NCBI RefSeq assembly: GCF_910592395.1
Contig: NC_088310.1
Span: 14,827,501 to 14,891,500 of the forward strand
Origin: Lineus longissimus
Lineage: Eukaryota; Nemertea; Pilidiophora; Heteronemertea; Lineidae
Direction: 5' to 3'
DNA: 64,000 nt
Shown piece after piece: positions 23,590-63,541 of the stretch. The notes below the pieces were generated by a model. The model saw only the letters and a list, made by a program, of their open reading frames with translations. It searched no databases and was not told the DNA's origin. Numbering within the stretch: the stretch's first letter is position 1; each line of letters opens with the position of its first letter. The translations under genes and the position numbers were made by a program.

Positions 23590-24900
23590 CGGGGGCGGCC
23601 TAGGGAGTCGAGACTGACTCCATCAGGCGATCCGACTGTGCCTGAGCACCCATGGTGTCAGGCAGGGAGTCATGGAACAAGAAAGGGCCACTCAATGGAG
23701 CGGTCCTTAATGCCCCCCGCAGAAACGGGGACCTGACCGTGCTTAACCCCCCGATGAGCAGGTCACGGCGTTTTAGCACGCCGTTAGCCGCCTGCTTAGC
23801 AGTCAGATCACTGGCATGCTGCAGGGACTGCTGGAGGGACATCGCGAGAACGCGCTGTTCCTCCGAGGCATCCGCAGCTAAAGACCTGGTAAGAGCACAC
23901 AGAGTCAGGTCGGCGTAAGATAACACCGCCTGGGTCTCCTTAGCCAGGGCCTCGTCATTCTTCGCATCCTTTAAGGCCGAAGAAGAGAGGACTTTAGGGG
24001 GTACCAAACCTGAAAGTTGGATGTCGTCCTTGAGGGGCGTCAATGAAACCGGGTCGGTTCCCGACGCTGAGACCCGATAATAATCGGGTCTATAGGACAG
24101 GCATGGAGGGGAAGCGGTCGTGAATCGCTTCCGAGCCTGAGTCCAGGCACCTGGCCCCGTAGACCGGAGCGTCGAGACCAAGGTGTGCTGGTGACCCCCG
24201 CAAGAAGGCGCTGTATCCCTGAGAGCCGTATCCAACCATGTGTAGGCTCTAATCAGGGCCAGAGACGCGGGCAATTCTTGAAAAGCCCGGTCAGGGACTC
24301 CTGCTCGGAGGCGTCGCCGAATAAGTCGAACGGCACCTTACCGAGGGCGGGGTTGACCGTCGGGAGAGGACAAGTGTCTTGCGGCACAAATTGTCGAACA
24401 AGAGCGCGCAAGTCGCGCATACCCGCGACAATGGCGGAGTCCTCACTCCCGGAGGGGTAGTCAGCCTGAGAGGCCGAAAAAGACTGTGAGTCGCTAAACT
24501 CACAGTCCATTGGCTGATGACCCAAGCCACCGGCCTCTCGGCAGGGCGAGTCGAGGACCTGTCATGGAGGTTGGAAGCCTCCATGCGGTCCGTCAGACTC
24601 CTGAGCAACTGCCGTTGCTCCTCCGTGAGAGAGGAAGCAAGAGGCTGAGGCTCAGAGCTCAAATCGGACTCCCGTGGGGCAGACACAGGAGGGGGGGAGG
24701 GGGGCATGCCTGATCGGCAGCCACACCCGTCAACCCCGACATACCCGACAGAGCAGGGTGGGGTCGGACCGGGGAAATGGACGGTCTGATGGCACCCATA
24801 ACGGGGGGGGGGGGGGGGGCACCAGGAATAGAGGTCGATCACCGACCCCCTGCCCACACCGGGCAGGACACCTCCGGGTGTGGTGAACGGCGGCAAAGAC
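23590..24900 (-). pseudogene. DIRS 1 Gag-like protein
   Basis: Open stretches at 24896-24291, 24525-24253 and 24274-23600 join by frameshifts into one Gag-like protein with an acidic N-terminal third and a helical core (LAKETQAVLSYADLTLCALT). Position directly upstream of the RT on the same strand supports Gag. A long G run at 24798-24816 breaks one frame. No zinc knuckle was seen. Confidence 0.65.
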
Positions 24901-43286: not shown

Positions 43287-43605
43287 AGCCCTTCTTAGTA
43301 AGGGCTCTATTTCTAAGCCAACGCCTAGAAAATTCTACCATATTGGATAATACCAGAGGTAGTATAACAATATGCCATATCCCCTTTAAATCCGCACGTG
43401 TCTACAGGTAAACAAAAAGTGACGTCACACTGCGCATGCTCACTTGGCACCGCCTCTATAACCTCACACCCACCAGCCCTTCAATCATCCTTCTTCCACG
43501 CAGACCGATCCCCAACAGGATAAAATGTGGGGAGGATGGGTGGGATAAATTCGTAGAATTTTCTAGGCGTTAGCTTAGAAATAGAGCCCTTACTACGAAG
43601 GGCTT
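43287..43605. mobile_element. Short DIRS-derived element with ~52-bp inverted ends
   Basis: 43287-43340 is the complement of 43552-43605 ('aagcccttcttagtaaggg' ends). Its interior 43335-43500 is nearly identical, inverted, to 48960-49120, the right terminal region of DIRS element 2. It is a non-coding derivative adjacent to the full element. Confidence 0.75.
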
Positions 43606-43819
43606 AAATTTCTAGCGTAACGCTCTAGAAAATTCTACCATATTGGATAATACCAGAGGTAGTATAACAATATGCCAGACTTGTCAGCGGAAGGTGGGAT
43701 TTTATACCCAAACCACCAACCAAAACAAAACGAAGGCAGGAGTGTGAGGAGCTCAGAAGAGCATGCCCCCCTCTTTCTGACCCAGGAAGGAACATTTTAA
43801 AAGGCTATTCACCCAAAGA

Positions 43820-46681
43820 TCAGTGAGTTCTCCTTCCTGCTACGGTCGGATGTAGTCTGCTGGATCCGTCAACCTGTGTTTGAAGATCCACCAAGTAATG
43901 AGACGTGAATGTAGTCTGCCTGGCCCAAGAACCTGCCAGTAGAATGTCCTCCACTGCCAGACCCGCCGCAAAAGCCCAAGATGCCGATATCCTTCGCACC
44001 TCGTGGCCCCCGGCTGAGACATTGCCCGCATAGGCAAACTTTATCACCTTTTTAAGCCAGGAAGAGATAGTTCTGGTGCACACAGACCCTTCCCCCCTAC
44101 ATTTAAAAAACAAACTGGAGCCACTGGCCCACCCATTTGTACATGAAAGATAAAACTTAAGCATCCTCACAGGACAGAGCAACCTATCTGAGTTGTCTCG
44201 ACCTGAGAACCTATCATGTCTTGGAACGAAAAATGGTTTCAAATCCGTGTCTGCCGCCTGGGTCTTAGCTAAAAACCCAGGGACAGTCCGAAGATGTACC
44301 CCATCATCCGAAAAAATTAAGTCTCGCTTATCTCGCGAAATAGCAAAAAGCTCGCTTGCCCGCTTTGTACAAGCCAAGGCAAGCAAAAATACAGTTTTCC
44401 ATGCCACAAAAACTCTTTGCTGGACAGTATCAAACTTAACAGGCTCGAACGGAGCTTTCGTGAGCATTGATAACACCTTTAAAAGATCCCACTCTGGGAC
44501 TCTATTCCTCAATTGAGGCCTTTCAACTGAAAAATTCTTGAGAAGCGCGGTTAAAACGGGGTGACTTCCCACCGAATAACCATAAAAAAAACCCAGAGCA
44601 GCCGATAACGCTGACCGGTGGTTCGCAATAGTTGCTGGCAATCTGCCCAACTCTTCAAACATATATACAAAATAATCAGCAATCAATGAAATAGAGAGAC
44701 TGTAGAGGCTCGTCCCTTGAAGAGAGCCAAGCCGAGAATGTACCGAAATGGCTCTCGTAGACGGACAGAGAAGACTTTCTCTGAGGTCTAGCTGCCCTAG
44801 CCGCACCCTTCTGAGAAAACCCTCTCTGTACCAAGGAATTCTCAATAAAGACCAGGCGTGAAGAGCCTGGGACTGGGGCTGGGAGTGAAAAACGACCGAC
44901 CCCGGTTGTTGGAGTAAACGACGGTGAGGAGGTAACGTTAGTGGAAACTCCACCAGCAGCTGAAGGAGAGCTGGAAACCAAGACTGCGCCGGCCAAGCTG
45001 GTGCAATCAGGATTATTATCGAGTCAGATTCGTTGACTTTCCTAAGAATGTCGCGAATCAGAATTCTCGGCGGAAACGCGTAAGCCATCAGGTTGTCCCA
45101 AGAAAGAGACATGGCATCGACCGCCCATGCTTGATCGTCCGGGAAGGGGCTGACATAAAGAGGTAGCTGATTGTTCTTGTAAGTCGCAAACAGGTCTACT
45201 TGCAGAAAAGGGAACAGAGCAAAGATCTGACTGAAGACTGATTTCGCCAGTGTCCACTCTGTCTCCAAGACACGATTCTGTCGTCTGAGACTGTCGGCCA
45301 GAACGTTTCTCTTGCCTGGTATAAAGGCTACTCTGAGAAAGATCCCCTGTTCCTGACAGGATAGAAAAAGCTCCCTGGTGAGCAGGTAGAGACTCAACGA
45401 CTGGGTGCCCCCTTGTCGACGAATGTAGGACACCACAGTGGTGTTGTCCGACAGAATTCTGATGCATTTGCCTCGAATCTGATTCAGCAAAGCCTTGATT
45501 GCTAACAGGACCGCCTTCAGCTCCAGGAGATTGATGTGAAGGCTGGCTTCCTGCTCTGACCACTGACCGGACACTGTCTGAGTGCCTAAGTGGGCACCCC
45601 AACCCGATAGACTGGCATCGGTAATAAGGGTCACGACTGGCTCGGGAGGATGCAACGGATCTCCGGCCATCAGATTGTCCTCGGACTCCCACCACAGAAG
45701 ATACTGGAAAAATATGGGCTGCAGCGGCACCACTATGTGATCTTGATGGGTTTTGAAAAAGCACTTGAGATAAAACTGCAGTGGGCGTAGATGAAGCCTC
45801 CCCAGTGGGATGAAATCTGCCATGAAGTTGAGGAGCCCCAGGAACGACAAGAAGCTCTTTGCCGTGACCTTCCTGTACCTCTTCAGATATACGATCCACA
45901 CGCGGACCTTCTGAACTGACTGTTCCGTTGGGAAAACTAGTCCTTGAATCAAGTCGAACAGGACCCCTAGATGTTCGAAAACCTGTCTGGGAGTCAAATG
46001 TGACTTCTCAAAATTGATCAGAATACCTAGAGTGTCGGCTAGCTTGAGGAGAAGCTGAAGCTGACAACACAGGGTTGCTGAACACTTGTTCCTGAGGAGC
46101 CAGTCATCCAGATAGAGATTGATTAGAAATGCCAGCCTCCTGAGATAAATCGCCATCGCTCTCAACACCTTTGTGAAAATGAAGGGAGCAGTCGCCAGAC
46201 CGAAGCACATTGCTCGGAAGCGATATATGGTGTCCCCTATACAAAACATTAGGTATTTGCGGAACTGAGGATGCACTGGCACGTGGTAATATGCATCCTT
46301 CATGTCAAGGGACACCACATATTCCCCCTTGTTCAGCTGTGCCCTTATCGAATGGACGGAGTCCATCTTGAAATGGGGCACCGAAAGGTGTTGATTTAAC
46401 GCTTTTAGATCTATCACAGGCCGGTGGCCCCCCGACTTTTTTGGAGTTACGAACATATGAGAGTAAAACCCTGCCTCCAAACTGAGGCGGGGACGATCTC
46501 TATGGCTTTCTTGGCTAACATCAAGTCTACTTCTCCTAGCAAGACTCGTCTCTTGGGAAGGTCCCTTGGTAAGGCAATGGGACGAGGGTGTTTTGTTAAG
46601 GGGGTTAAGGGCTGGAACTTCAGCCTTAAACCGTGAGTTACTACATCCATGACCCACTGGTCGGAGCCTATTCGAGCCCAC
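43820..46681 (-). CDS. DIRS 2 polyprotein: RT, RNase H, methyltransferase-like, tyrosine recombinase
   Basis: The 953-codon frame holds RT near the N-terminus (KKSGGHRPVIDLKALNQ; LDMKDAYYHVPVHP; catalytic YLDDWLL), then RNase H (LITDASLSGWGAHL, LLELKAV, ILSDNTTVVSYIRR). The DIRS methyltransferase-like region follows (LFATYKNNQLPLYVSPFPDD; IAPAWPAQSWFP). At the C-terminus is the recombinase (TKRASEL Arg; GGHEVRR; TSHYL Tyr). All named catalytic residues are present. The real N-terminus (ARLAEFAGMWARIGSDQWV) is in the neighbouring frame 46863-46447, so a 1-base shift near 46470 probably inactivates this copy. The first ~70 residues of the 953-codon frame are therefore spurious. Confidence 0.9.
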   Translation of the reverse strand: MGSNRLRPVGHGCSNSRFKAEVPALNPLNKTPSSHCLTKGPSQETSLARRSRLDVSQESHRDRPRLSLEAGFYSHMFVTPKKSGGHRPVIDLKALNQHLSVPHFKMDSVHSIRAQLNKGEYVVSLDMKDAYYHVPVHPQFRKYLMFCIGDTIYRFRAMCFGLATAPFIFTKVLRAMAIYLRRLAFLINLYLDDWLLRNKCSATLCCQLQLLLKLADTLGILINFEKSHLTPRQVFEHLGVLFDLIQGLVFPTEQSVQKVRVWIVYLKRYRKVTAKSFLSFLGLLNFMADFIPLGRLHLRPLQFYLKCFFKTHQDHIVVPLQPIFFQYLLWWESEDNLMAGDPLHPPEPVVTLITDASLSGWGAHLGTQTVSGQWSEQEASLHINLLELKAVLLAIKALLNQIRGKCIRILSDNTTVVSYIRRQGGTQSLSLYLLTRELFLSCQEQGIFLRVAFIPGKRNVLADSLRRQNRVLETEWTLAKSVFSQIFALFPFLQVDLFATYKNNQLPLYVSPFPDDQAWAVDAMSLSWDNLMAYAFPPRILIRDILRKVNESDSIIILIAPAWPAQSWFPALLQLLVEFPLTLPPHRRLLQQPGSVVFHSQPQSQALHAWSLLRIPWYREGFLRRVRLGQLDLRESLLCPSTRAISVHSRLGSLQGTSLYSLSISLIADYFVYMFEELGRLPATIANHRSALSAALGFFYGYSVGSHPVLTALLKNFSVERPQLRNRVPEWDLLKVLSMLTKAPFEPVKFDTVQQRVFVAWKTVFLLALACTKRASELFAISRDKRDLIFSDDGVHLRTVPGFLAKTQAADTDLKPFFVPRHDRFSGRDNSDRLLCPVRMLKFYLSCTNGWASGSSLFFKCRGEGSVCTRTISSWLKKVIKFAYAGNVSAGGHEVRRISASWAFAAGLAVEDILLAGSWARQTTFTSHYLVDLQTQVDGSSRLHPTVAGRRTH

Positions 46682-46756
46682 ATGCCCGCAAACTCCGCCA
46701 GTCTGGCCCCCACTGGAGAACCCGAACCCAGTGGGAGCAGGGAGGGTCCCCTGATA

Positions 46757-48600
46757 TCAGGAACGCTGCTTTGGTGGAGGCAGCATCTGTGTCCTGCCAC
46801 CCCTGCCACCCCTAAAGCTAATATTGTTGCCAGCCCTAGCTGGACGAGAGCTACCACGCCCACGCCCCCTAGGAGCTAGAGTAGGCGTCGCAGTGAAAGA
46901 CTGAGACGAACTCGTATGATAAGGCTGAGACCTCCCAGAGACAGAATTCAAAAGGAAGAACACCTTCCTTCTGTACAATAGGCTGATTTACCAGCCACTT
47001 ATTGGCTGCAGGGGGAACCAAAGACACCGGTGCAGACTCAATAAAAGAGCGTCGCCTAGCCAGCGTGGAGAGAGCCACAGAGTTGGCGGCAAACTCAGTG
47101 GCGTGCTTTACCGCCCAAACCAAACTAGCTGACATAGCAAGCTTGGCCTGTAAATCGCTGGCCGAGGGATCCCCTGCGGCCTCGATGCGCCGAATACCCC
47201 CAACCAACACATCAATAGCATTGAGTGCCAACAGTGCCTTCCTCGACTGACGCTCCACATCCTTCATCTCTGCACTCTTAATAAAGCCTGTGGACTCCTT
47301 AAGCCCAGTATAGGTCTCCAGGCTCTCCCCTACGTCCGGGGGCTTGGCCTGTACAGAATCAGTTGGTGTGGAGTAAAATTTCTCCTTGTAATGAGGAATT
47401 CTCCTGCGCCCAACTTTTTTAGACCCCTTCAAACTAGATGGCAGTGAATTTGGATCATCCAACTTGGCACCCTTCATGCCCCACATTTGTTCATGGATGA
47501 CGTCGAAGGTAGACGCCATCATCCCAGAATGCGGAAAAGCGACAGAGGGCCTTTGGGCCAGTATATCGTCCGACTGTAATTGTGACAAAGCCCGGACGGA
47601 TGAGGTCTGCTGCAGTCTACGAGGCAGATCATCACCAAGAACCGCGTGCAGGTTCTCAATGACTGCATAAAACTCAGAATCGAGTTTGGGACTCCCATCC
47701 CCATCTGGGTTGGAGGGATGGTTGGAAGAGAAATCTAAATCCATCCCTTCCCCAGCTACTGAAAAATCCAGTATGGCTGGGAGCGCGGAAGTCAAAAAGG
47801 TCACCATCCCCTTCTGGGTCTGGTGATTCCGACCTAAAGACTGTTGATGGGACCTCAGCCTGAGGAGGTTGGGTAGCTGGGACTCCCAGAGCAGCCTGGG
47901 GCGATTGTGACGCCCGTCCAGCTGACATCAGTGGCTTTACCATGGCTAAAAATGACCCCATCATCTCGGTGAACTGGTTAATGCCCGGTGCTGGAGAACG
48001 ACTGCGTCTCTGGCGCCTGCGACGAGATCTCCACTCATCATCTGAACTAGATGAAACATTGTCTTTGGAAAGCTTCCTGGACCTCCTACGTGACCTTGAA
48101 CGAGCGCGAGACCTTTGCCTCGTTGGCGACAAGGAAGGAGACCTACGGGTACGAGGTGAGACTCCCAGACCCGAGACAGGGGGAGGACCCAGAGGTAACT
48201 GGGGGGGGGGGGGGGCTCCGGAACCTTAGGATCTTCTGACGGCAATGGCGGCAGAAATTCCAACTTATCCCGACCAGAAAGTAAATTGCTCGTAGCACTA
48301 CTTCCTGAAGCCTTAGAGAGCGACTGTTCCTACTCTGAGGACCCGACGCTTGGCTTATCAGATTGACTCTGACTACTGGTGGACACTCTAGAATTTGAGG
48401 CCCTACCAGCAGTAGAAGTGGTGGAGGAAGAACCCTGCCTACTCTTCTGTTGAGAGCCTGCAGTGGTACCCTTACCAGTAGAATTTCTAACCATTCTAAC
48501 AGATGCTGCGAAAGCAGAACACTGCCGTAGAGTGTAGCATGTAAAACACGCAAAATGCACGTGAAAGCAGCAAGCTTGCAAAACGAAGCACCATGCACCA
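46757..48600 (-). pseudogene. DIRS 2 Gag
   Basis: Pieces 48581-48330, 48263-47961, 48132-47674, 47807-46869 and 46978-46757 join through one stop (near 48330) and shifts near 48200 (a run of 13 Gs on the plus strand), 47790 and 46975. The product has a Ser-rich start, an SRARSRSRRRSRK-type Arg/Ser tract, an acidic middle (FRSESPDPEGDGD), a helical core (DLQAKLAMSASLVWAVKHA), and a C-terminal RGRGRGSSRPARAG...GGRGGR tail likely to bind RNA. Confidence 0.75.
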
Positions 48601-49153
48601 GCGTTGAAGCTGAGCTATAGCCCTCAGAACCTGCAGCTTTGGTCGCCGTAAAGACTACCTAAAGAAGCAGAACTAGCAAGCACAAAAAAGAAAAACAATA
48701 CCTGAATGTGGTTCGACGGGGTTCCCGGCGGGCTGGCTGTCTAGCTGAGGCAAAACCAAGATCGACGGCGTGACACTGATCGATTTCGTAGACGGTACTA
48801 AACCGAAGTACCCCGACAGCCTCAAGGCGGTAGCTAATCTAAACCGTCAAAAGCTCAAGAAAACTTCCGAAAACCACATATAAAATGCAAAAAACCTTCT
48901 TAACTATTAAAATACTGTAGACTACAGATTAAGACAAGTCCGTGCAGGAGCGTGTCTACAGGAAAGAAGGATGATTGAAGGGCTGGTGGGTGTGAGGTTA
49001 TAGAGGCGGTGCCAAGTGAGCATGCGCAGTGTGACGTCACTTTTTGTTTACCTGTAGACGCGTGCGGATTTAAAGGGGATATGGCATATTGTTATACTAC
49101 CTCTGGTATTATCCAATATGGTAGAATTTTCTAGAGCGTTACGCTAGAAATTT

Positions 49154-50400
49154 ATGACGCGAATTGCCTCGACTCGTCGCCACATTTTAGGGGTCCCGTC
49201 TCCTCAATGTCCGTTTAGCTCCAAAGCAATGAGGTCTGTACATGTCCTCTTCGTCTCGCATGGTGGCCGGGTTCGTATAGCGCGGGAAGAGGAGGACAGG
49301 ACAACTCTCCTGCGCCACCCTTTTCCTGATGGAAGGGTGGATATTTTGACACGCACATGAAGAAAGAACAACTCATATACGACGTATTTGTGATATGGAA
49401 AAACTTTTTTATTTCTAATTTCAAAGTACACATTTTCAAATCTAGAAGAGAAATAGGGACAGAGCAATATTGAACATGACACATTGAAGAGCATCATGCA
49501 TGTTCGTTTTCACTTTTTATTTCGTTGCTCCTTCTCTTGAGTGGGAACTCTTAGTGGCAATCTCTAACATGATCTTATAAACAATTTTAGTAGCGAACAT
49601 TTTCTTAATTTCAAAACGTGTCTTCAGTTAGTGGCACCCTTGTGGTTTGTCTATCAATACAATTCAATTCAATTTATTTCAACTGATTTTTAGGCCACAT
49701 TTTTTTGCAGCATGAAAAATATAGACACATACAGCGGGATAATATAATAGAAAGACACGATGATACTTATGTACATAGTAATACACATACACTAACGCCT
49801 CTGCTCTTTTACTTTTTGCAGATACGTGGCCGATAAATTTCGTAAAATTTCATATTGTTTTGTAGACACGATATTGATAAATAATGATAGAACGGTTGGT
49901 CGTACAAACAATTCGACAGCTCACAAAAAAATCTCTAATGAGCGAAGACATTGGGCAACTGCTCTCTTGCCTTTCTCTGCAACATGATACAAACAAGAGA
50001 ATGTACCTTTCTAATAGACAGACAACAGGAGCGATTGCTTTTCACTCATATACCAGTATTCATATGTTCAAAGTACAGGCTATATAATTCATTTACAAAA
50101 AAAATATATACAACAACAGCAACAGTGATCCCGGCAGTGATCTTTTAAAATTTACGGCACCGCCTATCATTGGGAGCAGGAATATCTGTCAAATGCATGT
50201 TACTGCACGGAAGGATAATTAAGTGGGCGATACAATCTGTTTCGTTAGAAACGTTGTTTTCTTATCGAAGAGTTAGTTTGTTTTAAGCTGCGCGCAGTTG
50301 TTTTATTTGCGTATTTCTTTGCCAGATGTTTTTTGTAAAGGTAAAATTCATACTCTGCTAGTGTCATTCTTTCTGGTAAGTGATGTGGGTTTTTTTTCGC
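49154..50400. other. No gene; possible non-LTR 3' tail
   Basis: At 49660-49690 'aattcaattcaatttattt' recalls the short-repeat tails of CR1-type non-LTR elements, but no coding part precedes it on either strand. Confidence 0.3.
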
Positions 50401-50419
50401 GCTCAAAGGAATACAGTAT

Positions 50420-50686
50420 TCACGCGGATCGTAGATGATATGAATGGAGTTCTTCTTGCAAGATGTTTTTAAAGGAGCCCTTCTCCTCCCTGTTTTCGTT
50501 AAAAGTCATTGTTTTTTCTTGCCCCCACGTCCTTTTCCGTGTAGCTAGGTCATTTTGTATTTGGGCCTCAGTTTTTGTTACACCCTTTGTAGGCTTGTAG
50601 GCCTGTGACCCGATTGAACTGAGCCTCAATCTGGTGTCACAAAATTCCAACATGTCTTCCATGACCATGTTTTTCTTCTTCTCCAT
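50420..50686 (-). other. Unrecognised 88-codon open frame
   Basis: It starts with ATG at 50686 (MEKKKNMVMEDMLEFCDTR) and is charged and hydrophilic, without recognisable domain. It lies on the same strand as, and downstream of, 51126-51557, so the two may be pieces of one decayed gene. Confidence 0.25.
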
Positions 50687-51125
50687 CTAATTTCCAATTG
50701 TGTTCAACTTTAAGGTGATGAACCTGGCTATGCCTCCCCCAATGGTCCAAGCTTAATATTACTAAAATCCCCCTGTTCTTTATTTCGGAGGTAGTAGGCC
50801 CACATCTTTGTAATTTAAGAAACTAAGTAGAGAGTCAGCATGACTGTAGTGCTTTGTATATAGTATATGCTCTACAAGCACACCCCATACAACTTGTGAT
50901 TCATAGTAAATAGTGCAACATTTAGAAATAAACACCACATTCGCATATCCAGACGTGTTGTAGTTATAATTAGGGTATCGATCCACGATTTTCGGTTGTT
51001 GCATCTGCATGGCTTTTCGCTAAACGGTTTGATAGCTTCTGTCAAAACAGGCAAACAATGCATTAGACAGGCCTTACAACTTTGCAAAGCTGTGGTTTTT
51101 TGGTCGAAGAAACAGTGAAATTTTG

Positions 51126-51557
51126 TCATGGCTTCTTCATTTTTTTCATGCCCGCAATAAAAGTCTCGACAGCTTTTTCTTCCCGCGCCATGAGTTTGTC
51201 TACAGAGGCCTTTTGTGAAACAAAATCCTTGTGGTATTTTTCGCATTTTTCAGCCCAAGCTTTTATCTTTTCCAAAGCGACCTTTTGTTTTTCGTGGACA
51301 GAACAAATGTTTACAAAATCTTCAATAATGTGAGGATATTTTAATCTATTCTTTTTCGACTCAAATATTGGACGAAGATATTTTTTTACGAAGACTTTTT
51401 CATCGCCTGAACAGCATTCATGAGCGGAAGCTCCAGCTTGTTGGGGGGTTATATCATTGAAGGCAAGTTGTTCGTTTAGCTGGTTACGTAAAGTGATAAC
51501 ATCCTGTTCTACATTATACGCTTTCGGAAAAAGAGACCCCCTCGACAGGGATAATTT
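51126..51557 (-). other. Unrecognised 143-codon open frame without ATG start
   Basis: The minus-strand frame is bounded by stops at 51558-51560 and 51126-51128. It is rich in Lys/Glu with helix-prone stretches (VALEKIKAWAEKCEKYHKDF; REEKAVETFIAGMKKMKK) and a Cys pair (AHECCSGDEKVF). The even amino-acid composition suggests former coding. I do not recognise the family. It lies just left of the gypsy element, which may have truncated it. Confidence 0.35.
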
Positions 51558-51715
51558 TTAGACTGCATGTTCACCCGTTAAATAAATAAATAAATAAATA
51601 CATTTTCTTTTGCTTAAAGCTGAACTGTCGTTCGGATCCGTTCATTAAAGCTGAACTGTTGTTGAAATATCCAAACTATCCAATCAATTTGTAGTATATT
51701 TTTCAGATATTGACC

Positions 51716-52741
51716 ATGGCTGAGGGAGACGGAGAAGACATGGCAAAAGCAGTGAAGCAAGAAGACCCGAACAATCATTTTAACCGTGATGAGAGACAAT
51801 GGATGCGCAGATTGAAGACATTCTCGGGGAGGAAGAATCCTTCATCTTCGGAGCATGATTTCGACTCGTGGGAATTTGAGGTTCAACAGCTGGATGAAGA
51901 AACCGACATTGATGACAAAGTGAAACATCGTCTCGTGCGTGGAAGCCTAATCCAACCTGCTGCCGGTTTAGCTAGAAGTTTGGGACATACTGTTGATATA
52001 GCTAAAATACTGAAAGTGCTGAAATCAGCATATGGTCAGGCTGCGGATGGACATGAGCTACTCATGAGGTTTTACGATGTGGTACAGAAAGAGGAAGAGA
52101 AACCTAGCCAACTACTGCAACGACTTCAAGGTTTATTGAGGAGAGTAGTCGACTCAGGCGAGATACTTCATGATGAGGAGTTCAAAGTTTTGAGTAAACA
52201 ATTCACTAGGGCATGCAACGATGAAACACTCTTAATCAAACTTGACGGTTATGAGTATGACGACTTCGGAGAACTCTTTTGTGGTCTTGTAGAAAAAGAA
52301 ACCAGACTAAAAGACAAGAACTCGAGGTTTGGAGACCATCATAGTGAAAGTACCACAACGAAGAGAACCCAAGCAACAGCAAAGTCCCAGACAACTGCTG
52401 ATGCATCAACCCATAATACTCAAATGACACAGTTGCTTGAAACAGTTACAGCTCTCAGCGTTGCTGTAGATGAACTTAAGAGGGAACGAGTAACTGAGGT
52501 TGAAGCTGATGAACATCATCCAAATGGTCGAGGTCGTGGTACTACCCGCACAAGAGAACCAAGTGGATGGCGACCAAGATCCCGTGCACCATCATCCCAG
52601 ACAAGAAGCAGGATATGTTACCACTGTGGCGAGAGTGGACACTTCTTTAGAGATTGTACCAGACAGGGAGATCCCAGGAAAGTCTGCGATTTTTTGAAAG
52701 GGGGAGGAAGACAAGATGACAATGTTCATCAGGGAAACTAA
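51716..52741 (+). CDS. gag: Gag of gypsy element 1 (PNMA-like capsid, CCHC zinc knuckle)
   Basis: The ATG at 51716 lies in a good context (accATGG) and is preferred over the in-frame TTG at 51710. The protein is about 341 residues. Residues ~38-190 carry FSGRK...DFDSWEFEVQQL, then LKSAYGQAADGHELLMRFYD, then KEEEKPSQLLQRLQGLLRRV. This is the spacing of the capsid-like domain of PNMA proteins (F-SG...DYDSW.FE; LE..FG....G.DL...F....Q...E..S.Y..RL..LL). Residues ~301-314 are a CYHCGESGHFFRDC zinc knuckle for RNA binding. No stop or shift interrupts it. Family knowledge: vertebrate PNMA genes descend from a gypsy Gag. That this element is a relative is inference from the pattern. Confidence 0.88.
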   Translation: MAEGDGEDMAKAVKQEDPNNHFNRDERQWMRRLKTFSGRKNPSSSEHDFDSWEFEVQQLDEETDIDDKVKHRLVRGSLIQPAAGLARSLGHTVDIAKILKVLKSAYGQAADGHELLMRFYDVVQKEEEKPSQLLQRLQGLLRRVVDSGEILHDEEFKVLSKQFTRACNDETLLIKLDGYEYDDFGELFCGLVEKETRLKDKNSRFGDHHSESTTTKRTQATAKSQTTADASTHNTQMTQLLETVTALSVAVDELKRERVTEVEADEHHPNGRGRGTTRTREPSGWRPRSRAPSSQTRSRICYHCGESGHFFRDCTRQGDPRKVCDFLKGGGRQDDNVHQGN

Positions 52742-52773
52742 GGAATGCCTGCGTAGAGGGTCATACGCAGGCA
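52732..52773 (+). promoter_or_regulatory. -1 programmed ribosomal frameshift signal (slippery heptamer plus stem-loop)
   Basis: The heptamer GGGAAAC (52732-52738) is read G-GGA-AAC in the gag frame, immediately before the gag TAA (52739-52741). Seven bases later comes a perfect 10-bp stem, TGCCTGCGTA (52746-52755) pairing with TACGCAGGCA (52764-52773), with an 8-base loop. Slipping one base back enters exactly the pol frame. Heptamer, spacing and structure are those of known retroviral signals. GGGAAAC is also the heptamer reported for mammalian PEG10 and PNMA3. Confidence 0.85.
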
Positions 52774-55700
52774 GGCAAACCGAAAGGCCCAAGAAACTGC
52801 AACGGTAGTACTCGATAACACCATCCAGTAGATGAACCAAGTATCTTGTCGAAGCTTATTGGAGACCGGTGTGAATCTCAAGTCGTGGTTGATGGAGTTT
52901 TAGGAAAATGTCTGTTAGATTCAGGTTCGCAAGTGAGCACAGTTTCTGAAACATTTTACCGTACTCATCTTTCACATATCAGACCCTTGGAATCACTTCA
53001 ACAGGTGATTAGCATTGAAGGGGCTGGTGGGAATCTTTTGCCATATTTGGGATATATATCTGCAGATGTTCAATATCCAGGTGGTCCAGAGGCTGAAAAG
53101 CTTATTGCCTGTCTATTCCTAGTTTGTCCCAATAATGCATTTTCCTCAGACGTTCCTCTTCTTATTGGTACTAATGTTCTTACTGATTTGTGGCCAGAGT
53201 CTGTTCCTTTGTGGGCTCCTTCTGAGGTACAGCGTATTTATGCTTCAGCGATCAATGGAGAGAAGTTTTGTGATGGAGAGAGTGGACGGCTTGGTTCAGT
53301 TAAGGTTCTTAATTTCAGGGCAACTGTGGTCAAATCTGGTGAGACTGTATCCATTCCTGGCATGGTCAAGACAACGAACACTAAGATTGCATATCCAGCT
53401 ATAGTTCAGGAGCCGATTCATGACAACCCCCTGCCTGGAGGTATCTTAGTGCGAAACACTCTTGTAACTATGCCTGCCACTGGTAAATCTAGAGTTAATG
53501 TACAGGTGACAAATGTGTCAGAGAGAGAGATTATAATTCCGCCTAGGTCAACTGTTGCTGACTTGTTCCTTCCTAATTGGGTCAGATCAGTTGGCAATAG
53601 CAAGAAACGCCAAGATGTGGATGCGCCTGTGATTTCTGCAAAGTTGGCGGAGACAACTGAAGAGCCTGAGCCTAGTGAACGCAGTTCTAATCCAGACTTT
53701 ATAGACAAGTTCCAGTTTGACGAAAGCCTTTCGGCGGAATGGTCTGGTAGAGCACGAAGCTTGCTGCGAGAATTTCGAGATGTATTCTCAACTCATGACA
53801 TGGATATAGGCTGTACTGATATGACAGAACATAGGATTGAGTTAACCAACGACATTCCATTTAAAGAAAGATCAAGACCTATAGCTCCTCGTGACTTGGA
53901 GGATGCTCGGAGACATATCCAACAACTTTTAGATGCGCAAATCATCCGTGAATCGAAGAGCCCTTACGCAAGTCCGATTGTATTGGTACGGAAGAAGAAC
54001 GGTGATGTAAGATTGACAGTTGACTATCGGAAACTAAACAGAATCACTGTAAAGGACGCCTACGCTCTTCCAAGAATCGAGGATGCCTTCACAAAGTTAT
54101 CTGGTTGCCGTTGGTTTTCTACCATGGATCTTAAGTCTGGATATTATAATGTGAAGATACGAGAAGAAGATAAGTCAAAGACTGCCTTTACTTGTCCATT
54201 GGGCTTCTTTGAGTGGAACAGACTTCCACAGGGCATAACTAATGCACCAGCAACCTTTCAAAGACTCATGGAGAGATGTTTGGGGAGTATGAATTTAGAT
54301 TGGGCTCTCGCATTCATAGATGATTTGATAATCTTTTCAACTACACTTGAAGAACATGAATCTAGGTTACGTTTGGCTTCACAACGGTTGCGTCAATTTG
54401 GTCTAAAGTTAAGCCCGGAGAAATGTCATTTCTTTCAGAGATCCGTTCGGTACTTAGGTCATGTGGTATCAGAAAGAGGTATTGAAACTGACCCAAAGAA
54501 AGTTGCAGCGGTAAGTAGTTGGCCAAGGCCAGAGAATATGAAAGAACTCCGTTCTTTGTTAGGATTTATGGGCTACTATCGCAGGTTCATTCAGGGTTTT
54601 TCAAAACTGGCACATCCACTGACAGAGTTATTGAAAGGGTATACCCATCAAAAGGGGACAAAGTTGATTACTGATCGTGTCAAGATAAAGAAACCATTCG
54701 GTGAGTTATGGACAGCAGACTGTGAGAAAGCATTCCTCATTTTGAAGACTGCTATTACATCAGCCCCAGTATTAGCGATGGCGAATCCACAGATTGCATA
54801 TGAGCTTCACACAGATGCTAGCCTTTCTGGACTTGGAGCTGCTCTTTATCAAAAGCAAGAAGGAACTTTACAACCAATAGCTTTTGCAAGTCGCGGCTTA
54901 AGCAATAGTGAGCGTAACTATCCAGCGCACAGTTTAGAGTTTTTGTGACTCAAGTGGGCAGTAACAGACAAATTCAAAGACTATTTGTATGGTGCAAAAT
55001 TCACTGTAAAAACAGATAACAATCCTTTAACCTATGTCATGACCACAGCACGTTTAGACGCTACAGGGCAAAGATGGGTGGCCGCACTTTCATCCTTTGA
55101 CTTCACCATCCAATACATTGCTGGCAAGAAAAATTCTGATGCTGATGTACTTTCCAGAAGACCCCAACCGATGGATGACCCAGAGCTACTGGATGACTGG
55201 GATCAAGAGGAAGTTACCAACTCCTTATTAGACAGAGCTAAATGCACAACTGACGTCAAAGAGTTTTTGTGTGCTGCCCTAACCTCCGCTGATGCACCAC
55301 CAATCATGAGCTTTGCCAATTCCATGGGTGCCATTGCTGAATTGCAGGATGATCCATTCCAAGGGATACCAGTTACGGCATTGAAGGAAGCCTGATCAGG
55401 AAAGCCCAGAGTAGTGACCCCACAATTGGACGCGCCCGAGAGATCGTTGGAGCCAATGTTACATTTAACCAAATGCAACGTAGGAAGGAGCTACCCGCCG
55501 TGAGATCCTTGTTAAAGAATTTCAAATCTTTCAAGATCACCGATGGACTACTTTACAAGTGTAGCAACCTTAATGGGAAGCATTTTGACCGATTTGTGGT
55601 ACCTGCAGAATATAGAGCTCGAGTGTTTACAGGAATTCATGATGACATGGGACACCTAGGTTCCGAGCGTGCAATCGGCATAGCCAGAATGTGCTTCTAT

Positions 55701-57080
55701 TGGGTAGGCATGGAGCAAGACATACACCGTTACTGCCGCCAATGCCAGTGATGTACTTTGAGGAAGGCGAGCAACAATCGCCCTGCTATGTTGAATAAGT
55801 TACAGTCTACAGGGCCTATGGACCTTGTGTGTATTGATTTCTTGTCTGTTGATCAGGATAAAGCTGGCAGGGAGAATATATTGGTTGTTACCGACCACTT
55901 CACACGTTTTGCAAGGGCGTTTGTCACAAAGAAGCAGACTGCCAAAGAGGTAGCAACAATGTTGTGGAAAGGATTCTTCTTAGACTTTGGTTTTCCGCGA
56001 AGACTTCACTCTGACAGAGGGGCTTGTTTCACTGGCAAATTAGTAACTCAACTGAAAGAGATATCAGGAATTGAAAGTTCCCTTACAACCCCATACCACC
56101 CGCAAGGGAACGGTCAGTGTGAGCGGTTTAATCGCACTCTCATTGGCATGTTAGGGACACTTGATGAGGAGCGCAAGTCACAATGGTCTAAACATATTAA
56201 GTATTTAGTGCATGCGTACAACTGTACCATTAACGACTCCACAAGATTCTCACCATTTGAGCTGATGTTTGGAAGGCAACCCCGACTACCAATAGACTGG
56301 TACTTCGGAATTAAGGATCAGTCAGGAGAAGAAGATAGGTCGTTCGACAAGTACGTATAGGAACTCAAGAGTAGTCTCAAGGAGGCATACGATAAGGCCA
56401 GTGAAGCATCCGACAAGAATCACACCAACAACAAGAACAGACATGACCAGAAGGTCAGACGGGTAGATTTAAACATGGGTGACCGAGTACTGGTCAAGAA
56501 CGTGAGCGTCAGAGGCAGACATAAACTGGCAGATGCGTGGTGTCCGGACATTTACAGGGTGTGCAAGCGGATCGGCAGAGATGATTCTCCTGTATACATG
56601 GTACGGAGAGAGGATGGAAAAGGAACAACCCGAGTTTTACATAGGAATCTTCTGTTACCTTGTGGATTCCTACCACTTCCAGGGGTAAAGGATACTCAAC
56701 AACCAACTCTATCAAGTTCAGACCGCCCAGTCCCTAAACCCCGGAAGAAGACCATATCAGTACCAGTACAAGAAGAATTTGCACAACCAGTGTCTAGCTC
56801 AGAGAATGAACCTGCCCAGGAAGAGCCTGAGCGGCCTTTTTGGGATACTTCCGATTCCGAGTCTGAACAGGATATACCACAGACAATTCCACAACTAGCA
56901 ACACCGGCCGCTGCTGAACAGCAGACTGCTGATTATGATAGTCCGCCAAGAAGATCGGGGAGACATCGTGGCCCACCAGAACGTTTAGGATATGACGCAT
57001 TGGGGAATCTAAGTGTTCATCAACAGAATGCTGTTGCTCAGTTATTTGGAGCTGTTGCTGCACTACAACTATCCCGGTGA
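52742..57080 (+). pseudogene. pol: Pol of gypsy element 1: protease, RT, RNase H, integrase
   Basis: The frame entered by the -1 shift meets TAA at 52816, then is open 52819-54945: protease LLDSGSQVS (52912), RT with LTVDYRKLNRIT, MDLKSGYYNV and catalytic AFIDDLIIF (54308), and RNase H HTDASLSGLG. TGA at 54946-54948 interrupts RNase H. A 1-base shift near 55380 precedes integrase (zinc-binding MGHLGSERA and CRQCQ; TGA at 55749-55751). The DDE core CIDFLS, HSDRGACF, GQCERFN (55758-56360) is complete, with TAG at 56358-56360, followed by a C-terminal basic tail to 57080. All catalytic residues survive but four stops and one shift make it inactive. Confidence 0.88.
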
Positions 57081-57480
57081 TAAGGCGTAGCTATCCAACT
57101 TAATATGTGTTGCATTTATACTTCAACGCCTTGAACTCGATTTTGAGAATTTATATAGGAAGGAGTGGAGTGAACTGTTTGTAAAGTGCATTTCTGTGAC
57201 AATCATGGATGTTATGGTTGCTTACGAGTTAGTTTAGCTAAGTTGATTCAGTTCAAAGGTTTAGATAATGTGACACACCCTGCTACACAGCAGTGTGTTG
57301 GAATTTCACTTGCTAGTCATTGTTATGAGACATGACTTTTGTGTGTGATTTGATGTTGTAACTAAGTTTATTCTGATGTATGTTAATCATCTCTAGGAAT
57401 TGCAGTTATTGAACAAACCCTGTAGGATTATCCGGGTAGAGTTAGGTACATGTAGTTGATGGTAGCTGATATTTTTCTCT
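57081..57480. other. Junction between two gypsy elements, no gene
   Basis: 400 non-coding bases. A purine-rich patch AGGAAGGAGTGGAG at 57157-57170 could be the polypurine tract of element 1, with TGAACTG after it as a possible LTR start, but no matching 5' LTR was found. The start of element 2 is not marked. Confidence 0.35.
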
Positions 57481-60400
57481 TTGTTTTCTTTTGGTATTGG
57501 TACAAACTTATCTAATGAATGTCCAGCTTACCATATAATTTCAGAAGACCGTGCAGTTTTAGGTCCAACAGCACCACCTATCAGCAAAGAAAAACGACCA
57601 AGCCCAGAGAACATATTGCAGACGTCCAAATTGAACCCAACGGCAACGAGATTTGAACCTACTTCAGCGCAACCCAAGAAAGGTAGCATTAACTGGGTAG
57701 ACAGCAGCTTGTTTGTCACTGTTCAGGTCAATGGGGAGTCTATGCCAATTTTGCTTGACACCGGAGCGACTTCTACTGTAGTAAGCGCAGCGGCATGGAA
57801 GCAATTTTCCTATTCTGGGGAAGAGCTTGGGCCAGCAGATGGTTCTCTCACGTCAGCATCAGGTGATGAGTTGCATGTTCTTGGGTGCACCACGGTCTTA
57901 TTCCAGTTTGGTGATTTAGAGATTCCTCATAAGGTTGATGTGATTGATAATCTTGACTATCCCTGTCTCCTTGGTAGTGATTTCTTTGCAAAACATGACT
58001 GCACAATCGACTATGGTACCAAGACCCTCGCCATAGCCGGGCAGGAACTTCCTCTCCATCAGGACAGAGAAAACCCACGGATAAGTCGAGTGACCCTTAA
58101 CCGATCTGTAACGATACCACCCAATTCAGAGATGATTTTGACCGGACATCTCAGGTCGTCGGTGCATCTTAATGAAGGCACTCCTGGCATCATTGAGAGG
58201 AGGAAGGGAAACCAGTCCTTCTTTACCGGCCGGACTTAAGTGGTCCCACAGAAGGGAAAGGTTCCAGTACGTGTGGCAAATCTCTCCGACTCTGAGGTGC
58301 ACATCGAGTCACACCATACCCTTGGATGGTTCCACCCAAGTTGTGCATCGGATGCCAAGGTTATTCCTTTCTCCCCAGATGAGATGAACAACAAGGAATC
58401 TACGTCGACTGCCCAGGAAAAGAACACACAGGAGCGTCATCTGATTGGTGCTATAGACCCAACCAGAAAGACTGAAAACTGTGGTAGGCCAGCCGATGCA
58501 GACACGTCAAGAGACCAGCCGTCAGCAGCAAGAAAGCCCGGGGATGAGCCAGAAATGGAGACCCTCTTTGCTCAGCTGCAACTAGAGCAGACTGATCTTG
58601 ACCCAGAGCAGTTAAGAAAGGCAAAAAAACTGGTTACAGACTATGAGGACATCGAGTGGCGATTTTGACTTTGGCCGTAGTGAGTTAATTCAACATCACA
58701 TTGACACTGGGAACTCACCGCCAATCAAGCAGGCTCCCCGACAACTTCCACCTCACAGGTTGGAAGCAGTAGAGGAGATTGCTCTAGGCCTACTGGAAAA
58801 GAACCTTATCAAGTATGCCTCAGGTCCATGGAGTTCCCCGATCGTCTTAGCCAAGAAGAAAGATGGGTCCCTACGTCTTTGTATTGACTATCGCCGAGTT
58901 TACAGCTGTACGGTTAAGTCTGCACAACCTCTCCCTCGGGTGGATGACACGCTAAATGCTTTGAGCGGTTCATGTTGGTTTAGCTCCCTAGATTGTGCGT
59001 CCGGATATTGGCAAATGGAGGTTGCACCCGGAGATCGATCTAAGACTAGCTTTGTTTTTGGAAATAAACAGTTTGAATGGAATGTCATGCCCTTCGGGTT
59101 AACCGGAGCACCTGCATCCTTTACCCGTCTGATGTCCTTGGTGTTAGGAGGACTAACCCATTGTTTGGCTTATCTCGATGACATTATTGTCCACACTGTG
59201 TCATTTGATGATCACCTCACACGATTGGAGGAGGTCTTCAAAAAGATCCGAACATCCGGGCTGAAGCTTAAACCGACTAAGTGCAAACTTTTTTGGAAGT
59301 CTGTCTCCTTCCTAGGTCATGTTGTTTCCAAAGATGGTATCGCCACTGATCATGAAAAGACCAAGAAGATTGCTAGCTGGCCAGTGCCAATCAACCTGGC
59401 TGAGTTACGTTCTTTCCTCGGTCTTGTAACCTATTACCAACGATTTGTCCCAGACTTCTCTTAAATAACAACCCCCTTGCACAATCTTACAAAGAAAGGA
59501 GTAGAGTATGTCTGGTCTCTGCAATGCCAAGAAGCTTTCACTACACTAAAAGCACTGTTGACATCTCCTCCGATCCTTGCTTATCCTGATTTCACCAAAG
59601 ATGCTGGAATTTTCATTTTAGATACCGATGCGAGTGATTTTGCGATAGGGGCTGTCCTGTCACAAGTTCAACCTGGTGACACTGAAAGAGTGGTGGCTTA
59701 CGGCAGTAAAACTCATAACAGCGGCGAGCGTAACTGTTGCACAACACGGCGGGAGATGCTAGCATTAGTCACCTTTTGTGAGCACTTCCGTTATTACTTG
59801 CTAGGTAAGAAGTTCCGTGTCATAGTGGACAACATGGCCCTGCGGTGGTTGCTAAATTTCAAGAATCCATCTGGACAAGTAGCTCGTTGGTTGGAGCGAT
59901 TGGCTGAATTTGACTATGAGATCGAACATCGCCCTGGGAAGCTCCATGGGAATGCAGATGGACTCTCTCGTCGGCCAAAGCGTATCCGCCAACATGGAGA
60001 CTGCCCGCCATGTGGGCCAACTGATAAACCATATAACGAGGAGTGCAGGGGTGACAGCACTTGCGTAAAACACCTTGAAGAGGGAAAAGTGAAAGGACCA
60101 ACCTTGGTGGTAAGAATAGCAGGCAAATCGCAAAGCATCCTTTCATGGACTTCAACAGACTTGGCAAAGGCTCAACGGGAAGATCCGGACATAGGCCCCG
60201 TGATTGAGCACATAGAAAAGCACAAGAAGCCATCTGAAGCAGTCTTAAGATCCCTCGGCACCACTGCACGAGCTATTATGGCCCAGTTTCAGTTACTAGA
60301 TGTTAAGGATGACTGCCTTATTTTGAGGTCGCCAGAGAAAAAGGACCGGGATAACCCTCGCTGGGTCCTTCCAAAATCTCTGGCTGACCAAGCAATAAGT

Positions 60401-62023
60401 AACCTTCATGAAGGGTACGCCGGGGCACATCTTGGGGTATTGAAAACCCATGCTAAAGTAAGGAGTAGGTTCTGGAGACCAGGTTTGAAGCGATTGGTGG
60501 TTGAATTCATACGAGCATGTCCAACTTGCCAGATGATCAAATCACCACCTAAGACTGCCAAAGCACCAATGGAGAGCATTCCAGTCGGAAGACGATTCCA
60601 ACGACTCCATGTGGATGTGATTGGTCCAATCAACCCGCCCTCCAGACGTGGACATCAGTACATCCTAGTTGCCCAAGATGCTTTTACCAAATGGCCTGAG
60701 GCATGGCCCTTGGCACGGGTAGCCGATTACGTCACTCCGTTTGGTGTACCCGAAAGCCATCATTCAGATCAAGGATCCAACTTTGAATCTAAGTTATTCA
60801 AAGAGATGTGTTCGTTGCTGGGAGTGCGCAAATCGAGGACGACCGCTTACCATCCGCAATGCAATGGCCAGGTGGAGAACTATAACAAGTCCATTAAGGG
60901 CATGCTGACGGCCATGGTAGACGAAGAAGGCAGGGACTGGGATTTGAAGCTGCCAGCATCGCTCATGGCTTTCCGATCGAGCGTCCAAGCATCCACAGAG
61001 GAAACACCATATGCCATGGTATTTGGAGGGAAAATGCAGCTACCAATAGACCTGCTCCTTGGAAGCCCTGCAAATGAGCACCAACCGGAAACTACCACCT
61101 TCGTGAGGGACCTCCATGAGACCCTGGAGAAAGCTCACCAACGCGTGAGGGAAAAACTCGGTTAGGCTCAACAAAGGCAAAGGGCCTATTATGACAAGGG
61201 CTCGAAACTTACATCATTCGAAGTCGGTGACTTGGTCCTAATGAAGAACCACCACATTAAACAGCGTGAGGTTTCTAAATTCCACAAGAAATGGAAAGGG
61301 CCATACCAGATACTCGAGCGTATATCGGAGGTTACCTACCGAGTGGTCCCCACAACCGGAAGGCAGCGGAAAAGCGTTGTTCACCTTAACAACCTTAAGC
61401 GTTACTACTCCAGAACAGAATCAGTTGCAGAACAAGAACTGACTGCAGGCAACTCAAAGGACACGAATAGGCCCAAACCAAGAGCAAAGATAACCACCCA
61501 AGGGACAGCACAGCAAGAAGCTGTGCTAGAAGCAGATACCAGTAGTGACTCTGACTCGGAGACAGACAACAGACCAGACAACACTACGTCTTCTTGGACT
61601 CAAGAGCCAAGTCAAGTGCCGATGTCAGGATCTGAGTCTTCAGTTGGTGATTTAAACCCAACTGAATACCCGACCCTGATGGTGGACACGTACTCAGATG
61701 GTGACCTAGACCCAACTGAGAACTCAACCACCAGTCCAGTACCAGAGGAGCCAGCTGATGACAACTACCTGGACGAAGCTGACCATCCACATCAAAATGA
61801 TGGCTACGATTCACCTGAGGACGAGTCATCAGACAATGATGTGGTGGACGACGTCCATGACTACCAGCTGCGCCCAAGGACCATCTTGAAAAGACCAGCC
61901 CGATATCTTGATGCCGTGCAGAAGAAAAGTGCGACCTGGTCACGGATCAAGAGGAAGAAAGCTGGCTGGATTAACAAAGGAAAGAAATTAATGAAACAAC
62001 TGAACGAAGGAATAAATTATTAA
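57481..62023 (+). pseudogene. pol: Pol of gypsy element 2
   Basis: Protease is ILLDTGATSTVVS with LLGSDFF (57481-58239, TAA). A frameshift near 58655 enters the RT frame (58643-59464): LCIDYRRVYSCTV, LDCASGYWQMEV, catalytic AYLDDIIVH, TAA at 59462-59464. RNase H (ILDTDASDFAIGAVLSQ, REMLALV, VDNMALRWL) and integrase follow (59477-61165): EGYAGAHLG with CPTCQM, then DDE residues in LHVDVIGP, HHSDQGSNF, GQVENYNKS. TAG at 61163-61165. A GPYQILERIS..YRV chromo-like/GPY region and an acidic C-terminal tail run to 62023. About ten residues before HHSDQG seem deleted. Inactive: three stops and one shift. Confidence 0.88.
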
Positions 62024-62028
62024 CATTT

Positions 62029-62049
62029 CTTTTATGTATCTCTTTTCAG
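62029..62049 (+). promoter_or_regulatory. Candidate 3' splice site for ORF3
   Basis: A pyrimidine-rich run (TTTCTTTTATG, then CTCTTTTCAG) ends with AG at 62048-62049, four bases before the ORF3 ATG at 62053. Retroviral and errantivirus env ORFs are expressed from spliced RNA in the same position. No donor can be named because the 5' end of the element is missing. Confidence 0.5.
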
Positions 62050-62052
62050 TTG

Positions 62053-62979
62053 ATGGAAGGTGAAGCGCCGGAGATATGTGTGGATGCGGATGAAGGCCGA
62101 GAGGAACTGATTGCAAAACGCAAAAGCGCCAGGGACGTGGTCTACCAATTCCTGAAGAGAAACCTCCAGCTGCACGAACAGCAAGCAATCGACATGGCAC
62201 AGTTGGAGGAGCTGCATCAATTTGCAGAGAATAGGGATTTCTCTGGCGGAGCCACCATTACAGGAGTCACCATACAGGCTATCAAGTTTTTTGTTGCTCG
62301 GGCTAAATCATCCAGGAAATTTGCCTGTGGGGAAGTCAAATTTGTGGGGGTTCAGCTTAGGGATCTAGTGGAGCATTTTCATGGCAATGTTGGGGACTTA
62401 GAGACAACTATATCTAAGTTGAAAAGTTTTTCTTCCGTACAATCTTCTCATTCTAGTGAGGGGGGGAGGGGACAGGGACAGGCTGTGCCGCGAGAACTTC
62501 CGATCTTGCTTTTCGCGGACAGCATGTTCCTTCAATGTAAGCGGTTTCCAGGTATTCTTTCCGTGGCACATTCAGGGGAGAAGGCGGAGGAACTATTGAA
62601 CGTTGTTTCTCACCTGCGTGGTGATGCCAGGGCGGTGGTGGTGAATCATGGCCTCAACCATACCAGGAGCTGTGGGTCGCCACGACCTGCTATGGAGCAA
62701 GTCCTCCGCGTTCTCCAAACAAGTCACCCGGGTGTGCCAATTTTTCATTTGAATATGCCTATGTCACCTAGTCTTTGGTCCAACTCGCTGCAACTTGAAC
62801 GGGCACAATATTTTGAGTGGATGATGGCGGACATAGGCTTCATTTCAATTCCTCATCCCCAGCTTCCAGATCACCAGTATGGAAGGGACGCCTTTCATTA
62901 CAGTGATAGTGGGATGAGATATGTCCATTGTCCTCCATCATCTGACCTCGTTCGTGAGCAGCTGGTTGGGACACACTGA
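62053..62979 (+). CDS. ORF3: SGNH/GDSL hydrolase-like protein downstream of pol
   Basis: 308 residues from ATG 62053 (30 bases after the pol stop), with no stop or shift. Residues ~1-60 are charged and helix-prone (RKSARDVVYQFLKRNLQLHE). A Ser/Gly-rich linker lies at ~130-145. From residue 150 the four SGNH blocks appear in order: ILLFADSMF (Ser157), HSGEKAEELL (Gly175), VVVNHGLNH (Gly200, Asn202) and RDAFHYSDSGMRYV (Asp279, His282). Family knowledge: Ser, Gly, Asn and Asp-x-x-His form the active site of SGNH/GDSL esterases. Block I is ADS rather than GDS and the GxND Asp is His. The domain is compact. No signal peptide or membrane segment, so it does not look like an envelope. Function in the element is unknown. 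Esterase domains are known in ORF1 of CR1-type non-LTR elements, not, to my knowledge, in gypsy ORF3. Confidence 0.75.
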   Translation: MEGEAPEICVDADEGREELIAKRKSARDVVYQFLKRNLQLHEQQAIDMAQLEELHQFAENRDFSGGATITGVTIQAIKFFVARAKSSRKFACGEVKFVGVQLRDLVEHFHGNVGDLETTISKLKSFSSVQSSHSSEGGRGQGQAVPRELPILLFADSMFLQCKRFPGILSVAHSGEKAEELLNVVSHLRGDARAVVVNHGLNHTRSCGSPRPAMEQVLRVLQTSHPGVPIFHLNMPMSPSLWSNSLQLERAQYFEWMMADIGFISIPHPQLPDHQYGRDAFHYSDSGMRYVHCPPSSDLVREQLVGTH

Positions 62980-63318
62980 AGACTGATTGAACTTAATCGT
63001 CTGCTAATACTCTCCTAATAGTTACACTGCAGGTGGTTTTGTGTCGTTTTGTGAATACTAGTGACAGACAGTCGGCCCCTCAAGAGAAGAAGGCATCAAG
63101 GAGAAGAGACAAGACGCGAAGAGAAGGGTGAATGATGAGGGCTACCCAGGACCGGAATGTCAATACTCTTTCGGTCCGGGTAATGGTTGCTATACACGCC
63201 AGTGTCCTCCCATCACCCAAATTCACCAAGAGATGTCTGCTTATTGTACATACACCTTGTAAATATTACCGTTTTGCTGTATCTCAATTTTTTGTACATG
63301 TATATAGGCCCAGCAATT
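62980..63318. other. 3' untranslated region of gypsy element 2
   Basis: Non-coding between ORF3 and the polypurine tract. A long purine-rich stretch at 63080-63130 (AGAGAAGAAGG, GAGAAGAG repeats) might act as a second polypurine priming site. Confidence 0.4.
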
Positions 63319-63333
63319 TTAAAGGGGGGATGG
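63319..63333 (+). promoter_or_regulatory. Polypurine tract
   Basis: TTAAAGGGGGGATGG directly before the LTR start. It is the expected primer site for plus-strand cDNA synthesis. Confidence 0.75.
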
Positions 63334-63541
63334 TGTGGTGAGCAGGCCTTATGAGACGGCCCCTCACCAGCGAGCGACGAATGAGGTCGCGCAAGTGCAG
63401 AGCGCGGCGATTGAGCGGATCGACGAGACACACCGATTTGACTGTAGTTTCAAGAGAATAAAGAGCGTTGACATCAAGAATAACCCTACATAGATCGTAG
63501 ACGTGAGTTATTACGTAGTAGCTAGAAACTCGATTATTACA
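63334..63541 (+). repeat. 3' LTR of gypsy element 2
   Basis: Runs from TGTGGTGAGCAGG to ...CGATTATTACA (208 bases, TG..CA; it may begin at 63331). It contains a polyadenylation signal AATAAA at 63457-63462. The next bases belong to an unrelated minus-strand coding fragment, so the element boundary is sharp. No second copy in this window. Confidence 0.75.

Follow-up and report, generated by a model that had tools for sequence, protein, structure and literature searches.

A 64,000-nucleotide window of the nemertean Lineus longissimus (RefSeq assembly GCF_910592395.1, contig NC_088310.1, positions 14,827,501 to 14,891,500 of the forward strand; coordinates below count from its first letter) contains a Ty3/gypsy-type long terminal repeat (LTR) retrotransposon in which pol is followed by an open reading frame, ORF3, that probably encodes an SGNH/GDSL hydrolase-like protein. 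The element was filed as a 5′-truncated remnant, and its features are collected in Table 1. Matches to Pfam occur in the order protease (PR), reverse transcriptase (RT), RNase H (RH) and integrase (IN), with RT_RNaseH_2 (E 6.9e-31), Integrase_H2C2 (E 7.3e-17) and rve (E 2.7e-9) all in 59477..61165; this order is of Ty3/gypsy type, an assignment made from domain order that does not place the lineage. A GPY motif could be read in the translation of the integrase C-terminal domain, and the integrase core seems, by eye, to be internally shortened. Because pol is broken, by three in-frame stops (ends at 58239, 59464 and 61165) and by a frame change between 58643 and 58668, this copy is a dead relic. 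Neither gag nor a 5′ LTR of the element was found within the window. The protease frame opens shortly after the 3′ terminus of a further gypsy element, whose pol tail runs to 57080, and the only CCHC-type match on the + strand of 48000-58600, at 52616, belongs to that neighbour. No dUTPase match was obtained in 57466-58665, a region in which a stop and the frame change interrupt the linker and a divergent dUTPase might escape notice; the element was not filed as Vesta, the rotifer lineage discussed below. As a second copy of the 208-bp LTR segment was not found in the window, the LTR boundary is deduced from a single copy.

Table 1. Features of the Ty3/gypsy-type element and of its ORF3
Feature	Position	Strand	Details
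Aspartyl protease and protease-RT linker	57466..58668	+	Pfam gag-asp_proteas E 1.5e-9; first piece ended by in-frame stop at 58239
Reverse transcriptase	58643..59464	+	Pfam RVT_1 E 4.3e-31; frame other than that of protease; ends at in-frame stop
RNase H and integrase (H2C2, core)	59477..61165	+	Ends at in-frame stop
Integrase C-terminal domain and acidic tail, end of pol	61232..62023	+	Integrase_p58_C E 7.5e-12; SH3_Tf2-1 E 1e-5
Putative 3′ splice site	62018..62049	+	Branch-point-like TATTAAC 62018-62024, pyrimidine-rich run, CAG ending 62049
ORF3	62053..62979	+	308 codons; ATG at 62053, stop ends 62979
ORF3 protein regions			Residues ~1-140 helix-rich in a poor model, without Pfam match; residues ~146-308 SGNH/GDSL-hydrolase-like
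Codons of SGNH block residues	62521..62898	+	Ser157 62521-62523; Gly175 62575-62577; Asn202 62656-62658; Asp279 62887-62889; His282 62896-62898; hand-computed from start codon
Polypurine tract AAAGGGGGG	63321..63329	+	Read from sequence
Probable 3′ LTR	63334..63541	+	208 bp, TGT...ACA, AATAAA inside; after polypurine tract

ORF3 starts 29 bases after the end of pol, in a frame other than that of pol's end, and stops ~340 bases before the polypurine tract and probable 3′ LTR. For an estimate of chance length, 62023-63318 was shuffled 300 times under a first-order Markov model; the real segment holds 318 stop-free codons and the shuffles at most 246, while in ten Markov-generated counterparts of the full 64 kb the longest stop-free runs were 154-225. 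The remaining two forward frames of ORF3 contain 11 and 17 stops. Codon use was then scored with a model trained on the pol of the same element, whereby frame 0 of ORF3 scored best (0.140 bits/codon), with the other five frames at or below 0.111 and 500 base shuffles at or below 0.078 bits/codon; a codon model from the neighbouring gypsy element agreed on the frame. The 308-codon open frame reported in a preliminary description, made from the letters alone, was thus borne out in its coordinates, its length beyond Markov chance and its coding-like codon use. Its position, given there as between pol and the 3′ LTR, was confirmed on the pol side, the LTR side being deduced from the one 208-bp segment.

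The protein contains A155-D156-S157, G175, G200-L201-N202-H203 and D279-A-F-H282, so that the blocks named in the preliminary description (Ser157, Gly175, Gly200-x-Asn202 and Asp279-x-x-His282) are all present, and the SGNH blocks I (Ser), II (Gly), III (Asn) and V (Asp-x-x-His) follow one another in order, with block I reading ADS. The ordered pattern, which was written after the protein had been seen, recurred in 9 of 20,000 shuffles of the protein. Lipase_GDSL_2 from Pfam matched at E 0.0045 with the whole protein and 0.0012 with the domain alone, at 18-19.8 bits against a curated cut-off of 32.9 bits, and the N-terminal 141 residues matched no Pfam family. No NCBIfam family matched with E values up to 1, and the one PHROGs family obtained (E 0.16, residues 48-132) is of unknown function. 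In a renewed structural comparison of a low-confidence ORF3 model, SGNH enzymes could be observed near the top of the matches; 12 of the first 14 VIA-align rows bear SGNH-family names, 8 of these being one enzyme. A second model did not repeat the SGNH match and had CD38 first. Of 10 controls made by shuffling or reversal, none matched the family. With the domain-only model, a BFVD fold search returned nothing at E ≤ 0.001, and among the best 50 of 564 rows one was named as a lipase/acylhydrolase (rank 41, E 0.83). The profile search and structure prediction that had been proposed for this reading each went part of the way: the family was matched, but below its cut-off and in Pfam rather than NCBIfam, and the fold was matched weakly by the first, low-confidence model but not by the second. 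Together with the motif order, these signals, weak as they are, suggest that ORF3 is probably an SGNH/GDSL hydrolase-like protein.

Activity had been called uncertain in view of ADS in place of GDS and of His203. Since the family-naming Ser, Gly, Asn and His are kept along with the triad Asp, ORF3 could cut esters, and this part of the doubt is lessened, but on the residues hydrolase activity is rated as possible. In PAF-AH an Asn directly follows the block III Asn, and that place is not catalytic. The same place, held in ORF3 by His203, lies outside the catalytic and oxyanion-hole residues named for the ZfL2-1 esterase (S143, G165, N195, D279 and H282) in the available part of PMC3905857. p-Nitrophenyl esters are hydrolysed by this enzyme, which also binds acidic phospholipids, a property that the authors trace to its surface charge, with an isoelectric point (pI) of 10.8 (PMC3905857, available part). 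For the esterase-like domain of ORF3 the computed pI is 6.6, so that charge-driven membrane binding of the ZfL2-1 type is not expected. The highest 19-residue hydropathy mean in ORF3 was 1.18; no hydrophobic stretch of transmembrane grade was seen in the hydropathy windows, and no furin motif (R-x-[KR]-R) occurs in ORF3. A reading as an env glycoprotein was rejected on these two grounds, and the role in membrane transfer proposed in the preliminary description was, with the pI, not supported. The ORF3 protein is slightly acidic and has five Cys, one N-glycosylation motif (N-x-S/T) and, as the feature considered with regard to a signal peptide, an acidic N-terminus. A coiled coil was also considered, and its best heptad window was equalled in 137 of 1000 shuffles, which is not significant.

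The placement of ORF3 in the customary position of env was strengthened by a splice-acceptor signature at its start, newly noted here. A branch-point-like TATTAAC overlaps the pol stop, and an acceptor consensus ends three bases 5′ of the ORF3 ATG, with no AG between the two. Scored with a hand-written matrix for splice sites, the AG at 62049 ranked 30th of 4142 on the + strand of the window and third within the element. On both strands together, 68 of 7754 AG sites scored as high; a loose branch-point motif lay 15-40 bases upstream in 10 of these 68, and TNYTAAC lay upstream in 2, at 8610 and 62049, both on the + strand. ORF3s of LTR retrotransposons are typically expressed via spliced messages (PMC5408684, available part), and the consensus suggests an env-type spliced message as the simplest reading for this ORF3.

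Several retroelements are closely spaced in the window. Directly upstream of the element described here is a second gypsy-type element (51710-57080, + strand) with pol in several open pieces and a gag that matches Pfam PNMA (E 2.7e-16) and has a zinc knuckle; its 3′ non-coding end (57061-57500) has no partner elsewhere in the window. A retroelement at 43820-48598 on the - strand has a 953-aa frame free of breaks and an RVT_1 match; by eye it resembles a DIRS-type element, and it is surrounded by inverted repeat copies (43309-43458 with 49001-49151, and 43605-43677 with 49082-49154). Another element of this look, in this case broken, lies at 20710-24896 on the - strand (RVT_1 at 22179-23084). 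A probable decayed gypsy-like remnant at 34309-35937 on the + strand matches RVT_1 weakly and below the cut-off (E 1.7e-4) and has, by eye, a zinc-knuckle-like stretch in a piece without a Pfam match; its DNA matches the RT of the ORF3-bearing element (tblastn E 6e-20). No tRNA was found in 1-64000, nor any Rfam match at the gathering threshold.

On balance, we favour an explanation in which ORF3 is a gypsy accessory gene in the env slot that encodes a soluble, intracellular SGNH-fold hydrolase, probably from a spliced message. As an accessory gene of Ty3/gypsy type, it would stand where env usually does, and a donor near the 5′ end, in the missing part of the element, would be joined to the acceptor three bases before its ATG. 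The protein, with a helix-rich N-terminal part, could cut carboxy- or thioesters, such as those of lipids or protein palmitoyl groups. Its substrate may be an acyl or acetyl ester met during particle assembly or trafficking, a role like that proposed for the ORF1 protein esterases of long interspersed nuclear elements (LINEs).

Several points weigh against this explanation, and some of them would fit other accounts of ORF3. Its intactness was rejected as a sign of selection: 4 interruptions in ~4.56 kb of pol give, by a hand estimate, ~0.81 expected in 924 bases, so that decay at the rate of pol alone would leave ORF3 unbroken in ~44% of cases (~36% when the apparent integrase shortening, left out of the first figure, is counted in), and the open frame is for this reason weak evidence. 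ADS in place of GDS, with a His after the block III Asn, might mark lost or weakened catalysis, and the SGNH fold would then be the element's own but that of a non-enzymatic, Oskar-like binding protein. Such losses of hydrolysis are known from Oskar and from insect homologues of PAF-AH (PMC3905857, available part), yet all five catalytic and oxyanion-hole residues are kept in this single copy, and we consider this account unlikely. Less likely again is that a host gene or a gene of another mobile element, for instance the ORF1 of a LINE or an SGNH gene of texim type, was trapped in this one copy. No second copy was seen in the window, where the sole tblastn match of ORF3 besides itself had E 0.40, and carriers of SGNH genes include CR1, RTEX and Penelope elements (PMC3905857) and Helitrons (PMC4021074), according to the available parts of these papers; a trapped gene is nevertheless less readily reconciled with the tight packing of ORF3, which has the branch-point-like site over the pol stop, the acceptor near its ATG and the polypurine tract after it, or with codon use that fits the element's pol. 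That ORF3 is not SGNH at all, but an unrelated additional ORF whose domain is Rossmann-like and whose motif residues are coincidental, would agree with the sub-threshold profile match and the CD38 result but is very improbable given the rarity of the ordered blocks among shuffles (for a pattern defined afterwards), the unmatched controls and the run of SGNH names in VIA-align, even with one enzyme behind most of them.

The accessory-gene explanation was then compared with known systems. By tblastn, no relatives of ORF3 were found among 7 viral and 31 genome-contig pattern matches, and none of the RNaseH-integrase piece among 2 viral and 15, in viral and prokaryotic collections that have little bearing on eukaryotes. 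Ngaro elements carry SGNH ORFs. As described in the available part of the source, the esterase-bearing ORF1 proteins of LINEs (ZfL2-1/CR1 and RTEX; Schneider et al. 2013, PMC3905857) resemble ORF3 in their ~300 residues, C-terminal SGNH domain and similar spacing of catalytic residues. They differ in that ORF1 precedes pol, whereas ORF3 follows it, and in having a coiled coil and a strongly basic esterase (pI 10.8), unlike ORF3 with its pI of 6.6 and no significant heptad signal. Counting back four residues from the block III Asn, with the G-x-N register as sole guide, Asn198 of ORF3 falls where these proteins have the transposon-specific His191; the other specific residue, Ser228, has no assignable counterpart. 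Asn198 leans against descent of ORF3 from LINE esterases. The texim SGNH genes of fish Helitrons (PMC4021074, available part) likewise place an SGNH gene on mobile DNA but have several introns, no reverse transcriptase and a different carrier.

The closest counterpart lies among LTR retrotransposons themselves. The preliminary description knew of no gypsy family with this architecture, but a GDSL esterase/lipase as ORF3, with invariant residues intact and no transmembrane domain, had already been described for the Vesta elements of bdelloid rotifers (Rodriguez, Kenefick and Arkhipova 2017, PMC5408684). As far as the available part of that paper goes, Vesta shares with our element the PR-RT-RH-IN order, a GDSL/SGNH ORF3 after pol that keeps the invariant residues and lacks a transmembrane domain, and a TG...CA LTR (159-551 bp across bdelloid families, 208 bp here). 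Vesta differs in having a dUTPase between PR and RT, where none was detected here, in the reduction of GPY/F to a proline in Vesta1-5, where GPY is present here, and in GDSL clones of 1.3 kb, against 0.93 kb for this ORF3. According to the same source, the Vesta ORF3 and the GDSL domain found in a Penelope-like family are related, the Vesta ORF3 being distinct in the tree from LINE esterases, and Juno and Vesta form a deep-branching clade of LTR retrotransposons. In PMC9025612 and PMC7599744, the term SGNH is confined to one reference-list entry each. Because the Juno-Vesta clade is deep-branching, and GPY is present and no dUTPase was detected here, the Lineus element may be of another lineage, Vesta and the Lineus element being compared by description rather than by sequence. 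We raise more tentatively the idea of an independent capture, in which a canonical Ty3/gypsy family in a non-rotifer host took an SGNH gene into its env slot together with env-style splicing; if true, esterase capture would be recurrent and convergent in LTR elements, as in LINEs, Penelope elements and Helitrons. If ORF3 is fixed in its family, another LTR element, with GPY present and dUTPase undetected, would stand among the unrelated mobile elements that carry SGNH proteins, hinting at a shared need, perhaps for lipid or acyl-group handling in assembly or trafficking rather than for envelope entry. The kind of arrangement is already known from Vesta, and the Lineus element probably adds a member of that kind.
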